A stretch of 64,000 nucleotides of DNA from Hahella sp. CCB-MM4. GTDB lineage: Bacteria > Pseudomonadota > Gammaproteobacteria > Pseudomonadales > Oleiphilaceae. The notes below the pieces were generated by a model. It was not told the DNA's origin. It made no database searches and saw only the letters and a list, made by a program, of their open reading frames with translations. A program made the position numbers and the translations under genes. Of the stretch, positions 2,324 to 56,663 are shown one piece after another; within the stretch, counting starts at the first letter, position 1, and the number at the start of each line of letters is the position of its first letter. Location of the stretch: contig NZ_MRYI01000008.1 in assembly GCF_002260525.1 (NCBI RefSeq), forward strand, positions 62,001-126,000, read 5' to 3'.

Positions 2324-2374
2324 TTTGTTATACGCTCCCATTTGTCATACTTTTCCGTTTGTCATACGCCCCCC
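2324..2374. repeat. Three tandem 17-bp units before pyrG
   Basis: Three contiguous units begin at 2324, 2341 and 2358. Each starts TTTGTYATAC and ends in a C-rich stretch (for example TTTGTCATACGCCCCCC). The first ten bases are nearly invariant and the tail varies. Confidence 0.8.
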
Positions 2375-2628
2375 ACCGCTTATTTTGACTCCAAATGAGG
2401 TGTTGTAGATTCCTCCCCCGTACGATCTTGCCGCTATACAAAATATTTTCTGCATGTAGGCCTTACCCACTTCGGATGACCCTGGATCATATGCCGAAGA
2501 AATAATCGCAGTCCACGCACGCTTCTTTGATTGAGCTGGCCTCCGGTTTCTGTTACTCTGGCGTCCCATCTTGAGATGAATATCTCCCTCCAATCCGACT
2601 AACATCTTAACGCCAAAACGGGTTCTGC

Positions 2629-4260
2629 ATGACGCGCTATATATTCGTCACAGGTGGGGTTGTTTCTTCCTTAGGGAAGGGCATCGCATCCGCCTCCTTG
2701 GCCGCTATTCTCGAAGCACGCGGGCTAAAAGTTACCATCCTTAAACTTGATCCCTATATCAATGTTGATCCCGGAACCATGAGTCCGTTTCAGCATGGGG
2801 AAGTCTTCGTCACTGAAGATGGTGCGGAAACAGATCTGGATCTGGGTCATTATGAGCGTTTCATCCGAACGCCGATGACCAAGCGTAACAACTTTACCAC
2901 TGGTCGCGTGTACGAAACCGTATTGCGCAAGGAGCGCCGTGGGGACTATCTTGGCGGAACCGTACAGGTTATTCCTCATATTACGGATGAGATAAAACGC
3001 CGCATCGTGGAAGGGGCGGGCGAGGCCGATGTGGCGCTGGTTGAAATCGGTGGTACGGTCGGTGATATCGAATCCCTGCCATTCCTGGAAGCTACCAGAC
3101 AGTTGAAGGTGGAAGTAGGGGCCAAGCGGGCGCTGTTCATGCACTTGACCCTGGTTCCTTACATTGCCACTGCCGGCGAAGTCAAAACCAAGCCTACCCA
3201 GCATTCCGTGAAGGAAATGCGTTCAATTGGTTTACAGCCGGATATTCTGGTCTGTCGATCCGAGCATAGTATCGATCAATCTTCCCGCCGTAAGATCGCG
3301 TTGTTTACCAACGTTGAGGAAAAGGCGGTTATTGCTCTGGAAGATGCCGACAGTATCTACAAAATCCCCCGTATGCTGCACGCACAGGGGCTCGACGAGA
3401 TTATCGTTGAGCGATTCGGCCTGGAGTGTGGTCCTGCGGACCTCAGCGAATGGCAGGCGGTTGTTGATGCTGAAGCCAGCATGAAAGGCGGTGTCACCAT
3501 CGCAATGGTGGGCAAGTATATGGATCTGCTGGACGCCTACAAATCTCTGAATGAGGCGCTCAAGCACGCGGGTATCCGTACAGGAAACAAGGTCAATATC
3601 AAGTACATTGATTCTGAGCAGGTTCATCAGAAAGGTGTTGAGCTCCTGCAAGGTGTGGATGCCATACTGGTCCCCGGTGGTTTCGGAGAGCGTGGCGTCG
3701 AAGGGAAAATCAAGACCGTTCAGTATGCCCGTGAAAACAGGATTCCCTACCTTGGGATTTGTTTGGGTATGCAGGTCGCGGTGATCGAATATGCCCGCCA
3801 CGTAGCAGGTATGGAAGCGGCGCATAGTACCGAGTTTGATACAAAATCACCGTTTCCCGTTGTCGGTCTGATCACTGAATGGCAGGATGCGAGCGGGGCG
3901 ACGGAAATCCGGACAGAGCAATCTGATCTTGGTGGTACCATGCGTCTTGGCGCCCAGGAATGTCGCTTGGAAGAAGAATCGCAGGCTTATGCTGCTTATG
4001 GCAAGAAGGTGATAGCTGAGCGGCATCGTCACCGCTATGAAGTAAACAACAACCTGCTGCCCAAACTGCAGGAGGCCGGATTGAAAATATCCGGTTGGTC
4101 TGCGGATGGTTCTTTGGTCGAAGTGGTGGAAGTACCTGAGCATCCCTGGTTTGTGGCTTGTCAGTTCCATCCGGAATTTACTTCTACACCGCGGGATGGA
4201 CATCCACTGTTTGAAGGTTTTGTGAAGGCTGCGGTGGCGCATGCTCAGAAGCCTGAATGA
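2629..4260 (+). CDS. pyrG: CTP synthase
   Basis: PyrG aminates UTP to CTP using ATP and glutamine, the last step of de novo pyrimidine nucleotide synthesis, in the cytoplasm. The 543-residue length is typical. The N-terminal synthase domain opens with [19 protein letters not shown], holding the phosphate-binding loop, and includes the conserved [15 protein letters not shown] region. The C-terminal class I glutamine amidotransferase domain carries the nucleophile elbow GICLGMQ (Cys near residue 380) and the catalytic His-Glu in FHPEF near residue 518. It is followed by a strong hairpin-plus-T-run before kdsA, so it may be transcribed separately from kdsA and eno despite the conserved order. 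Confidence 0.98.
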
Positions 4261-4326
4261 TAAATAAGACATACAGGTCCCCCGTGGTTTCCGGATATCC
4301 CGGGGTCGACTAATGTAGAGGACATC

Positions 4327-4366
4327 AAGGGCCCACATTTGTTAGAATGTTGGCCCTTTTTATTTT
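4327..4366 (+). terminator. Intrinsic terminator after pyrG
   Basis: AAGGGCC (4327-4333) pairs with GGCCCTT (4352-4358), with an inner ACAT/ATGT pairing, followed by a T-rich run. Confidence 0.75.
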
Positions 4367-4462
4367 CAGCAATACGGGTTTAATCAGTCTCGGCCGCACT
4401 GAGTCCAATATCGCAGATGTTGCCTCGGCCTCGTTAGACCCCCACGGGAAATTCAAAAGCTC

Positions 4463-55148: not shown

Positions 55149-55583
55149 CATGCTGATAAAGTTTCTGGCTGAACGTTGTTTGGGAAATCGGGGTTCCTGC
55201 GAGGTTTTGTGCACCGGCATCCACGGAAGCCCGGGAAATCAATATCCTTAGGTTAATACTTATTACCATGAATAAGGCGGGCTTTCTGTAAATGACGACC
55301 TACAGTCTGCAAATGATAACCCACGATCTGTAAATGATAATCCACAGTAAGTCATAACCTAGGTTCGCCCGGAGGTTATTGAACTCCGGACATTAACATC
55401 GCCGTGCCCAGAGTCAGGTTCGACGATGAAAATAAAAGACCAGCATTATACACAGCGCACCATGTGCTTAATAGAACCCGGGGCGCTAATGTGGGCTATT
55501 GGCTTTCTATTGACGCTCATTTGCATCAGAAGTCTGCCAATAACCCATGAAGACGGGAGGGGATTGGGAGGATAATCCGGAGG
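55149..55583. other. 435-bp gap upstream of valS
   Basis: On the valS strand it holds a TATAAT at 55445-55450 (a possible -10, about 300 bases before the start), a hairpin CCGGAG/CTCCGG (55369-55389) and the 21-bp repeats at 55286-55348. If that -10 is used, valS has an unusually long leader. No ORF fits except the 24-codon extension of valS. Confidence 0.5.
55286..55348. repeat. Three 21-bp tandem units in the valS leader
   Basis: Units begin at 55286, 55307 and 55328 in register, sharing CTGYAAATGAYRAYCYAC and ending in ACAGT in two of three. A decayed fourth may follow. Confidence 0.88.
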
Positions 55584-56039
55584 TCAGCTTTTGATACCTG
55601 AGTTACCAAGTGCCGGTAGGCGAGAGCCCAGCTGGCGAATGACCTCTGCACGGATTCGCTGTTCAATCTGAGGCATGTATTCGGCCAGCACCTTCTGGGT
55701 TGCCAGATGGACGATACGGTCCAGATCCTGGGTATCCTTCATTGCGGAGCTGGCAGGGCGTTGATTCTGCTGGCTTTCAAAGAAAGATTTGAACTGTTTT
55801 TGGAACTCTGCGCGCTCGAGGGCCAGCTTGGCAAGGTTTTCATAAGGCAGAAATGGGTTCTTTGATTGTGTCTGGTCTGGATTGTTGACTGATTTCATCG
55901 TGTCGGTTCCTTCCAAAGAAGTTGCTGATCCTGTGGATTGAGATGGAGCAGCCTTGTCCCTGACCTTTTTTTGTTCGAGGACTCGGTCGTCCAATAGTGG
56001 AATGATGCTATTGTCATTCCCGGCTATGGAGGCACTCAT
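55584..56039 (-). CDS. Unknown protein between valS and holC
   Basis: The ATG at 56039 has AGGG seven bases upstream; a frame to 56060 would add seven residues. The 151-residue protein has no recognised family. The N-terminal half is polar and low-complexity; the C-terminal half is helical (NLAKLALERAEFQKQFKSFFE and LDRIVHLATQKVLAEYMPQI, each given only to its limit). A gene at this place, between valS and holC, is common in Pseudomonas. It may be a small cytoplasmic accessory protein. Confidence 0.55.
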   Translation of the reverse strand: MSASIAGNDNSIIPLLDDRVLEQKKVRDKAAPSQSTGSATSLEGTDTMKSVNNPDQTQSKNPFLPYENLAKLALERAEFQKQFKSFFESQQNQRPASSAMKDTQDLDRIVHLATQKVLAEYMPQIEQRIRAEVIRQLGSRLPALGNSGIKS

Positions 56040-56193
56040 GATAATCCCTGTTCTCTGCAAGTATTATGGGGTTGTAGTACGTCTTCTACTGTTTATTATT
56101 ATCTGAATAATTCATACCGTTTCCGGAATGTTGGTTGATTTTGGTAAAAATATCCCAAATTGGCAACAGTCCGAAAAGCCTAGTAATAAATTA

Positions 56194-56616
56194 TTACAAC
56201 TCCAGCGAATGGGTTTTCATTTCAAATCCAACTTCTTTGTACTCTCTGAATTTGTTCCTGGCAATATGCTTTTCGGCCGATGCATTTGGGACTATTTCTA
56301 TAACCCTAGACGTTTCTGTATAAACGACTGGTGACAGATTAACCACTACGGCCGGGGGCTGATGAGGGTGGATTCCGCTACCCAATTCAATGGGGGCTTT
56401 GCCATCAGACTCCTCAACCAGCGCATGTGGCAGAAAGCTGTCTGGCTTGAATTCGTAAAGCAGGTCATCCAGAAACTGCAGCTGCTCCTGGTTGCGACAG
56501 GCAATATATATGTGGTTCCCAAGGCGAACGGCCTTTTCCGCCAGACGGCATACAAATTGATTCACGGCTTCAGGAGTTGCCGTGTTTAACAGATAGAAAT
56601 CGGCCTTTTTGGGCAT
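56194..56616 (-). CDS. holC: DNA polymerase III subunit chi
   Basis: HolC (chi) joins single-strand binding protein to the clamp loader. The 140-residue protein has the start KADFYLLNTATPEAVNQF, the Rossmann-like core ending in LPHALVEES and PVVVNLSP, with the typical middle IYIACRNQEQLQFLDDLL. It lies between pepA and the unknown gene on the same strand. The gap before it includes two 18-bp units. Confidence 0.9.
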   Translation of the reverse strand: MPKKADFYLLNTATPEAVNQFVCRLAEKAVRLGNHIYIACRNQEQLQFLDDLLYEFKPDSFLPHALVEESDGKAPIELGSGIHPHQPPAVVVNLSPVVYTETSRVIEIVPNASAEKHIARNKFREYKEVGFEMKTHSLEL

Positions 56617-56627
56617 TCAGGACTCGT

Positions 56628-56663
56628 TGTTGGAACTGATAAATGTGTTGGAACTGATAATTT
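56628..56663. repeat. Two 18-bp tandem units before holC
   Basis: TGTTGGAACTGATAA is repeated without mismatch at 56628 and 56646. Confidence 0.85.

Follow-up and report, generated by a model that had tools for sequence, protein, structure and literature searches.

Dense short tandem duplications, mostly of 16 to 24 bp, in the intergenic DNA of Hahella sp. CCB-MM4

The gaps between genes of Hahella sp. CCB-MM4 carry many short head-to-tail arrays with mutually unrelated units, about sevenfold denser than in the other Hahella genomes sampled. The explanation that we consider probable is a lineage with a raised rate of tandem duplication of ca. 20 bp, whose products grow in copy number, decay, and are filtered by selection. 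On this view, the arrays are a mutational footprint and not a designed element; they look less like mobile DNA or switches than like the product of a heightened tendency of the cell's own replication or repair to duplicate short stretches. Relatives undergo the same type of event, in most cases less often.

We analyzed a window of 64,000 nucleotides (contig NZ_MRYI01000008.1, positions 62,001 to 126,000 of the forward strand) and 866 kb of the 6.66-Mb genome, a draft of 161 contigs. From 28 listed relatives, none of them a second strain of this species, 17 were sampled for arrays in stretches of 80 to 295 kb each (left out were G004, G007, G008, G010, G011, G018, G019, G020, G023, G026, and G028, as well as stretch L124 of G022, which is all N). 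The sister, Hahella ganghwensis, provided syntenic gaps for comparison (gaps of <20 bp excluded), though none for the sites at 56628 and 62668. Array densities count Tandem Repeats Finder (TRF) arrays with a score of ≥46 and a period of ≥7 bp, excluding gaps of <30 bp. Genes were delimited with a home-made caller, and 11 of the 74 gap arrays lie inside some open reading frame (ORF) of ≥100 amino acids in any of the six frames.

Arrays in the window and in the sampled genome

A sequence-only reading of the window had named 15 gap sites and one gene, panE, as carrying contiguous repeats. We measured ungapped self-similarity at periods of 7 to 40 bp in the 45 window gaps of at least 25 bp, with 150 dinucleotide shuffles for each. 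Eleven gaps beat all of their shuffles (ca. 0.3 expected), and every one of them contains a named site (2324, 16702, 17482, 20061, 27560, 29696, 35966, 42502, 55286, 56628, and 62668) (Table 1). In this test, the sites near 7070, 9874, 12385, and 28972 proved not to be individually significant. For the third of these weak sites, both GTGTTACC words are present in the sister too, which marks the repeat as older and possibly a conserved site. TRF at default penalties detected 6 of the 15 gap sites and also the panE array. The ORF following the first array (2629 to 4260) is presumably pyrG, going by its sequence.

Table 1. Tandem repeats in the window. Positions count from its first nucleotide; n/150 is the number of shuffles scoring as well.
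Positions	Strand	Repeat	Detection and context
2324..2373		17-bp × 2.9 array	TRF, 0/150; gap separating ORFs 1548-2282 and 2629-4260, in the half that is not conserved
7068..7108		Weak repeat, 23-bp unit	24/150
9874..9904		Weak repeat, 22-bp unit	21/150
12383..12418		Weak repeat, 22-bp unit	22/150
16706..16762		18-bp × 2.7 array	TRF, 0/150
17474..17565		About five diverged copies, 18-bp unit	0/150; between Rnf-Nqr subunit and endonuclease III genes
20074..20110		21-bp duplication	0/150; 52-bp gap
27560..27597		22-bp duplication	0/150; gap of 334 bp versus 194 bp in sister
28971..29000		Weak repeat, 19-bp unit	9/150
29698..29825		17-bp unit, ca. eight decayed copies (counted by eye)	Score 31, 0/150
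35965..36009		16-bp × 2.8 array	TRF, 0/150
42502..42533		16-bp × 2.0 duplication	TRF, gap 0/150; starts 6 bp past quinolinate phosphoribosyltransferase gene
42530..42587		Second, different array, 19 bp × 3.1	TRF; same gap, abutting the 42502..42533 array
51903..51952	-	18-bp × 2.8 in-frame array inside panE	TRF score 79; FQNLEH repeats
55285..55346		21-bp × 3.0 array	TRF, 0/150; gap of 363 bp versus 283 bp in sister
56628..56676		18-bp array	0/150
62668..62690		8-bp × 2.9 exact array, period outside the 16- to 24-bp class	TRF, 0/150

The window gaps hold 7 TRF arrays in 8.2 kb, versus 0.0 in shuffled sequence, and the 51.9 kb of gaps examined outside the window yielded 36 arrays, versus 0.6 after shuffling. 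Over the whole 866 kb, the total reached 74 arrays in 125 kb of gaps. The five other Hahella genomes, pooled, had 11 arrays in 112.4 kb (binomial P = 3e-10 versus CCB-MM4), the 17 relatives pooled had 32 in 252.4 kb (P = 2e-11), and Escherichia coli K-12 had 1 in 16 kb (150 kb examined, gaps of >2,500 bp excluded). The relatives are less rich in arrays, whose periods are for the most part those seen here, although one genome of another genus, G015, is as dense as CCB-MM4. A more sensitive test, restricted to gaps of 60 to 600 bp with 60 shuffles each, gave along similar lines 40 of 200 gaps beating all shuffles in CCB-MM4 (drawn at random from 224), 9 of 36 within the window, and 16 of 161 in the sister; among other relatives, the figures were 2 of 78 in G001 and 0 of 101 in G021, G022, and G027 together. 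The expectation that the prevalence is far above chance is thus borne out against shuffled sequence and most sampled relatives, as well as E. coli, and fails against G015; neither of the outcomes that would have refuted it, a density equal to that of shuffled sequence or one shared across unrelated gammaproteobacteria, was obtained in this sample.

The period was 16 to 24 bp in 55 of the 74 arrays, as had been proposed from the window, where the 8-bp unit near 62668 is the exception. All-against-all scores between units were the same as for shuffled units, and a 14-mer was shared with the rest of the 866 kb in 19 arrays, close to a rough chance estimate. Therefore, the earlier judgment that this is not a mobile or REP-like family stands: the repeats have neither the same sequence across loci nor a palindromic unit, as REP or BIME elements would, and the folding energy of doubled units (+ strand) was matched or undercut by 9 of 30 shuffles. 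There was no convincing common motif and no strong word in the units of the 74 arrays. The trinucleotide CTA/TAG occurs in 39 of the 74 arrays versus 26 expected, a figure uncorrected for the many words tested, and TGG was seen by eye near the start of several two-copy units. An apparent excess of A on the contig strand vanished once arrays were oriented by GC skew (on the leading strand, A and T are both 0.294 in units, versus 0.268 and 0.291 in array-free gaps).

Birth, decay, and placement of the arrays

Copies range from identical to barely alike, as the sequence-only reading had described. Their match is below 95% in 67 of the 74 arrays; the remaining 7, at ≥95%, indicate that some births are recent. 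In arrays without indels, the differences between copies comprised 139 transitions and 81 transversions.

Ten syntenic gaps with a TRF array were longer than their sister counterparts by a median of 50 bp; the 105 syntenic gaps without one, a set that includes gaps with decayed arrays below the threshold, differed by 1 bp (Mann-Whitney P = 0.006). In eight of the ten, the sister has no array, and in two, it has one elsewhere in the gap. Other Hahella genomes supply the polarity of two such differences. The gap at 42497, which holds the arrays at 42502 to 42587, is 165 bp here and 80 bp in the sister, and matches to its flanking genes lie 31 bp apart in four other Hahella genomes and 24 bp apart in a fifth. 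Likewise, the gap at 17438 measures 138 bp in CCB-MM4 but only 28 bp in the sister and 6 to 85 bp in five other Hahella genomes. The gap with the ca. eight-copy array is 239 bp, versus 99 bp in the sister. The sister's counterpart of the gap with the array at 35965 contains a different 16-bp array, elsewhere in the gap. These insertions are not accompanied by any sign of general gap growth, with which the data are nevertheless compatible: orthologous gaps total 20,770 bp versus 22,804 bp in the sister, and the gap fraction is 0.130 versus 0.139.

Within genes, arrays are rarer than in gaps, and 20 of the 22 coding arrays of the 866 kb have a period divisible by three. Three of the four coding arrays with a sampled sister orthologue are in-frame insertions here, versus none of four comparable coding arrays of the sister. 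One array lies in the window's panE gene, identified by Pfam (PF02558 and PF08546), and is an insertion relative to the sister's protein. Together, the absence of most arrays from the sister, the longer gaps, and the lineage-specific in-frame cases support the proposal of birth followed by decay. Coding arrays occur at no higher density here (22 in 866 kb) than in the sister (7 in 295 kb). If births were more frequent throughout the genome, genes would be expected to carry more of them, barring purging.

Array density peaks in convergent gaps, at 13.3 per 10 kb versus 4.2 in divergent gaps (convergent versus all others, P = 0.002), and, as judged by eye, arrays sit outside the conserved parts of gaps. 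Neither observation favors the further suggestion that such duplication continually creates promoter spacing. They also bear on the idea that the arrays are functional, as clusters of binding sites or regulatory leaders under selection. The intergenic position, the narrow period near two helical turns, and the weak site at 12383 shared with the sister would suit that idea, yet convergent gaps contain no promoter of the flanking genes, the units are unrelated and mostly missing from the sister's syntenic gaps, doubled units fold no better than shuffled ones, and the window had no Rfam match at the gathering threshold. We regard selected function as very unlikely.

Junctions, rival explanations, and candidate enzymes

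Under the duplication account, this Hahella lineage would be gaining tandem duplications of ca. 13 to 25 bp, mostly 16 to 22 bp, at a raised rate. Each would begin when ca. 20 bp are duplicated in direct succession, in many cases with at most one base of microhomology at the junction, as expected from fill-in and rejoining of opposing nicks or of a short staggered break; a fork restarting ca. 20 nucleotides back could be an alternative source. Misalignment between existing copies may then add or remove units or parts of units, taking arrays from two to about eight copies. The substitutions between copies document that point mutation makes them diverge, and selection, as indirect evidence indicates, would purge the majority of events in genes, except those whose length is divisible by three, sparing arrays in unconstrained spacer and above all in convergent gaps.

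Classical replication slippage between short preexisting direct repeats, which predicts duplication ends that share microhomology, is the rival that we take most seriously, as a possible but improbable account of the first step. Small variable segments of E. coli have been attributed to it (PMC2884548), and growth from two to eight copies here is probably slippage in any case. The junctions speak on both sides. We defined a two-copy class by copy numbers of <2.35 without indels (27 of the 74 arrays; we set aside 5 ambiguous ones, with an excess of less than -5 or more than 10 bp), and in 15 of the 22 arrays retained, the excess at the junction was ≤1 bp, in a class whose definition hides long overlaps. 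Simulations with 2 to 6 bp of forced microhomology put that fraction at 0.03 to 0.39, and the observed value fits 1 bp (0.64 to 0.69) better than blunt joining (0.83 to 0.86; lower tail, 0.03 to 0.07). In the full set of 74, the largest bin (18 arrays) comprises those that deviate from exactly two copies by no more than 5% of a unit, and 46 extend at least 5 bp beyond two units; among exact duplications of ≥9 bp, 12 of 17 extend at least 5 bp beyond one unit and only 2 by ≤1 bp. We read these overruns as partial or whole third copies, but long overlaps at birth would produce the same counts. Exact duplications of 6 bp were also raised over shuffled sequence (32 versus 19.8), as slippage would have it, whereas those of 5 bp (58 versus 76.3), 7 bp (8 versus 6.1), and 8 bp (1 versus 1.5) were not clearly so and those of 9 to 22 bp were in excess. 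The scarcity of microhomology in two-copy arrays would speak against microhomology-driven duplication, an argument that the longer arrays weaken.

Given that density is the ratio of birth to loss and cannot by itself separate the two, slower loss could raise it as well. It is therefore conceivable, if unlikely, that births occur as in relatives and that removal is slower here, through weaker deletion or weaker selection on spacers. The relatives' arrays of similar period at lower density, and coding arrays no denser than the sister's, are in keeping with slower removal; gaps that are not larger overall than the sister's, and the births recent enough to leave nearly identical copies, are not. 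A small mobile or site-specific element might leave target duplications of ca. 20 bp, which the unit length resembles. We find such an origin highly improbable, since units form no family and share no strong word, periods vary continuously, five to eight copies are reached, and no insert is left between copies. That the arrays are products of assembly or of chance, as a draft genome might suggest, hardly deserves credence in view of the substitutions between copies, the count of 36 versus 0.6 after shuffling, and the in-frame cases in genes.

Returning to a raised duplication rate, we looked for enzymes that might underlie it. Ku (PF02735) was found in 2 of the 29 genomes (G016 and G017) and in neither CCB-MM4 nor G015, so that in CCB-MM4 the joiner is not Ku-dependent end joining. 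Loss of mismatch repair, of the PolA 5' nuclease, or of exonuclease I was discarded as a cause, as mutS and the two nucleases are present in CCB-MM4. The ATP-dependent ligase domain (PF01068) does not discriminate, scoring 36 bits in CCB-MM4 (cutoff, 26.2) and similarly in G006 and G015, with matches in 12 of the 29 genomes. SbcD was above the cutoff in eight of the 29 genomes, five other Hahella genomes among them, and not in CCB-MM4, the sister, G015, or G024, with weak subthreshold matches in the first three. Its relation to array density among the 18 sampled genomes was nonsignificant (Mann-Whitney one-sided P = 0.30), and five sampled genomes without SbcD carry no arrays; loss of sbcD is only a lead. 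As a tentative extension that we think improbable, a heritable mutator specific to near-blunt tandem duplication of ca. 20 bp, acting by Ku-independent fill-in or fork restart, may have been raised on at least two independent occasions, in this Hahella and in the genus of G015, with SbcCD loss as one candidate cause.

Comparison with known systems

New bacterial spacer DNA and small in-frame protein repeats are usually attributed to slippage between existing repeats. A severalfold excess of one size class, next to a sister of lower density with syntenic gaps, offers a system for measuring birth, enzymes, and removal; if the excess is confirmed, tandem motifs in front of genes would, in genomes of this kind, be poor evidence for regulatory sites. 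Our literature search, to which most subscription papers were closed, returned no publication on tandem repeats of H. ganghwensis and, judging by titles, none on this subject for Hahella chejuensis.

As contiguous head-to-tail units of ca. 20 bp found by TRF, longer than the 9 bp from which minisatellites are counted, the arrays resemble bacterial minisatellites or VNTRs, but their density far exceeds that in the E. coli K-12 sample of 150 kb; among variable loci of E. coli, minisatellites make up a small share, 18 of 1,037 going by the first column of a published table (PMC2884548). In mammalian cells, small tandem duplications formed at staggered breaks are described as arising by fill-in of complementary overhangs and near-blunt joining, a route requiring Ku80 and CST/Pol alpha-primase (PMC8355091). 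The Hahella duplications are similarly short, in a genome without Ku and with blunt junctions only partly supported.

In unit length, the arrays also resemble the repeats of Borgs, archaeal extrachromosomal elements with head-to-tail units of 18, 20, and 21 nucleotides in the example given (PMC9879509). Those repeats are reported to be virtually all unique, formed recently and independently, intergenic or, with lengths divisible by three, genic, often with partial repeats at their flanks, and virtually absent from host genomes (PMC9879509). Hahella shares the unrelated units and the coding periods divisible by three (20 of 22). In contrast to the perfect and A-enriched Borg repeats, its copies are mostly diverged, without A excess once oriented by strand, and the arrays lie on a bacterial chromosome, where they are rarer in genes than in gaps. 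Close direct repeats are overrepresented in prokaryotic intergenic DNA as a general trend (PMC4060949), of which the Hahella arrays are an instance; beyond that survey, the main text of which does not mention Hahella, they show a single lineage standing well above the other sampled members of its genus, with a defined unit length.

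Tandem arrays in the window and across the genome

The sequence-only reading had placed contiguous head-to-tail copies at 15 gaps between called genes and in panE. Each of 45 window gaps was compared with 150 dinucleotide shuffles, and the gap beat every shuffle at 11 of the 15 named sites and at no other tested gap; the panE array was confirmed as well, so that the claim stood at all but four gap sites. With TRF (score of ≥46, period of ≥7), the window contained 7 arrays in 8.2 kb of gaps. The comparison with shuffled controls proposed earlier bore out the excess, since a separate 400 kb of the Hahella sp. 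CCB-MM4 genome outside the window had 36 arrays in 51.9 kb of gaps, versus 0.6 in shuffles. At this density, the window is typical of its own genome. The window spans 62001-126000 of contig C140 in this 6.66-Mb genome of 161 contigs. Over 866 kb, window included, drawn from three contigs and analyzed with a simple gene caller, the gaps amounted to 125 kb and contained 74 arrays.

The period was 16 to 24 bp in 55 of these 74 arrays. We counted 17 exact duplications of 9 to 22 bp, an excess over an expectation of no more than 0.1 for each length, and those of 6 bp were raised (32 versus 19.8 in shuffles), while those of 5, 7, and 8 bp were not clearly over the shuffled level. The 74 units resembled one another no more than shuffled units did, in agreement with the earlier view that the sequence differs at every site and that no mobile or REP-like family is involved. 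We found no extra hairpin tendency of the units, no strand bias after orientation, and no Rfam match at the gathering threshold in the window. Array density was about three times higher in convergent than in divergent gaps (convergent versus all others, p 0.002), and the 44 arrays in co-directional gaps tended to lie nearer the stop codon of the upstream gene (KS p 0.008).

Gaps and repeat sites, in window positions unless a contig is given
Position	Feature	CCB-MM4	H. ganghwensis	Other Hahella
12383-12418	Weak site, possibly a conserved site	two GTGTTACC words 22 bp apart	kept	
17438	Gap	138 bp	28 bp	6-85 bp
29647	Gap	239 bp; 230 bp between flanking matches	99 bp	five genomes, overlapping to 186 bp between flanking matches, some match ends stopping short or extending into the gap
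34509-34553	Weak repeat, 9-bp period	equalled by 1 of 150 shuffles; not named in the earlier reading		
35935-36157	Gap		own, different 16-bp array	
42497	Gap	165 bp	80 bp	five genomes, 24-31 bp between flanking matches
51903	Array in panE			
56628, 62668	Sites past the end of the sister contig			
Contig C140, 182708-182889	Single convergent gap	a pair of distinct arrays near each other (17 bp x 2.4; 18 bp x 5.4)		

Gap history and density in relatives

Hahella ganghwensis DSM 17046 was chosen as the sister because it was the closest of six same-genus genomes (78% identity versus 51 to 56%, in one protein). Synteny with its contig reaches ca. 55.9 kb of the window, where that contig ends, leaving the last two sites of the window in the table outside the gap comparison. 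We compared 115 orthologous gaps (≥20 bp) between the two genomes. Where CCB-MM4 had a TRF array (10 gaps), its gap exceeded that of the sister by a median of 50 bp; the remaining 105, a set that takes in gaps whose decayed arrays miss the threshold, differed by 1 bp. Inspection of the alignments by eye placed the arrays in poorly aligned parts, with the conserved parts intact; the weak site at the top of the table was exceptional. The sister had arrays in two gaps, both also array-bearing in CCB-MM4, with a different sequence and a different place in the gap, and thus some gaps may be permissive or prone to arrays. In each of the three gaps polarised by other Hahella genomes, the longest version was that of CCB-MM4.

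Of the 28 listed relatives, 17 were sampled in stretches, and their gaps (252 kb) yielded 32 arrays. Five other Hahella genomes together had 11 in 112 kb (sister, 6 in 41 kb; G001, 1 in 32 kb; G002, 1 in 17 kb; G003, 3 in 12 kb; G005, 0 in 11 kb), and Escherichia coli K-12 had 1 in 16 kb. The sampled stretches of six further relatives (G009, G017, G021, G022, G025, and G027) had none. However, G015, from another genus of the same family, equalled the CCB-MM4 density (8 in 12 kb), and G024 was intermediate (5 in 14 kb). Periods in the relatives were mostly as in CCB-MM4 (13 to 19 bp in seven of the eight G015 arrays, stretches L096 to L100). A more sensitive per-gap test ranked the genomes broadly as TRF density did (positive gaps: CCB-MM4, 40/200; G015, 7/35; G024, 7/46; G016, 7/55; sister, 16/161; G001, 2/78). 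Therefore, short arrays are common in kind to these relatives and raised in the CCB-MM4 lineage, but they are not unique to it. The earlier impression of a prevalence far above expectation holds against shuffles and most sampled relatives, although not against G015.

Junctions, coding arrays, and the proposed origin

As junction excess, we measured how far the repeat match extends past one unit. The two-copy class (copies below 2.35, no indel) comprised 27 of the 74 arrays, reduced to 22 after five ambiguous rows were dropped; its copy limit hides long overlaps. Excess was ≤1 bp in 15 of the 22 (median, 0.5). The corresponding fraction in simulated births was 0.83 to 0.86 for blunt junctions, 0.64 to 0.69 for forced microhomology of 1 bp, and 0.03 to 0.39 for ≥2 bp, so that the class fits one base best, blunt junctions marginally (lower tail, 0.03 to 0.07), and ≥2 bp poorly. 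Near-blunt junctions are partly established for this class. Over all 74 arrays, excess was ≤1 bp in 20, 2 to 4 bp in 8, 5 to 9 bp in 10, and ≥10 bp in 36, and 12 of the 17 exact duplications of ≥9 bp extended at least 5 bp past one unit. The most populated bin, with 18 of the 74 arrays, comprised those that matched two copies to within 5% of a unit or fell slightly short, and few arrays (10 of 74) had an excess between 0.15 and 0.5 unit. We read the long excess as partial or whole third copies, but the arrays and duplications that show it may have been born by long microhomology. Slippage or microhomology birth followed by decay had been suggested earlier; the decay is evident, and the birth step appears near-blunt in most of the two-copy class, yet long excess occurs elsewhere.

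Within genes, the period was divisible by three in 20 of 22 CCB-MM4 arrays. For four of them, the sampled sister sequence included an orthologue: three, panE among them, were in-frame insertions in CCB-MM4, and the fourth was a conserved stretch merely repetitive in appearance. The sister had seven such arrays, four of them comparable, and not one of these four was an insertion. Duplications therefore arise in genes too and survive if in frame. Per 100 kb, coding arrays were no commoner in CCB-MM4 (22 in 866 kb) than in H. ganghwensis (7 in 295 kb), which counts against a simple genome-wide rise.

We consider it rather probable that tandem duplication of ca. 20 bp, often near-blunt, was raised in this lineage and was followed by unit gain, decay, and selection. 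Birth would proceed by fill-in or fork restart, and misalignment between copies would then add units. Of this scheme, the data show the excess, its lineage specificity, the unrelatedness of the units, the decay of the copies, and the filter for in-frame events in genes. We infer that birth, not loss, is what changed. Ku was not found in CCB-MM4, so any joining of ends would take another route. Defects in MutS, the PolA 5' nuclease, and exonuclease I were rejected as candidates, all three being present. SbcD (TIGR00619) scored over the cut-off in five other Hahella genomes, with no such match in CCB-MM4 or the sister, suggesting that SbcCD was lost in their clade. Its association with array density across 18 sampled genomes was not significant, and we treat SbcD loss as no more than a lead to the cause.

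Similar duplications in other systems

In rice, insertions have reportedly been interpreted as patch-mediated tandem duplications, and yeast flap-endonuclease mutants are said to produce short duplications with flanking microhomology. Close direct repeats are generally over-represented in intergenic DNA, according to PMC4060949, and similar duplications in mammalian cells are explained in PMC8355091 by break fill-in via Ku-dependent joining. The nearest parallel to the CCB-MM4 arrays is that of the Borg elements (PMC9879509).
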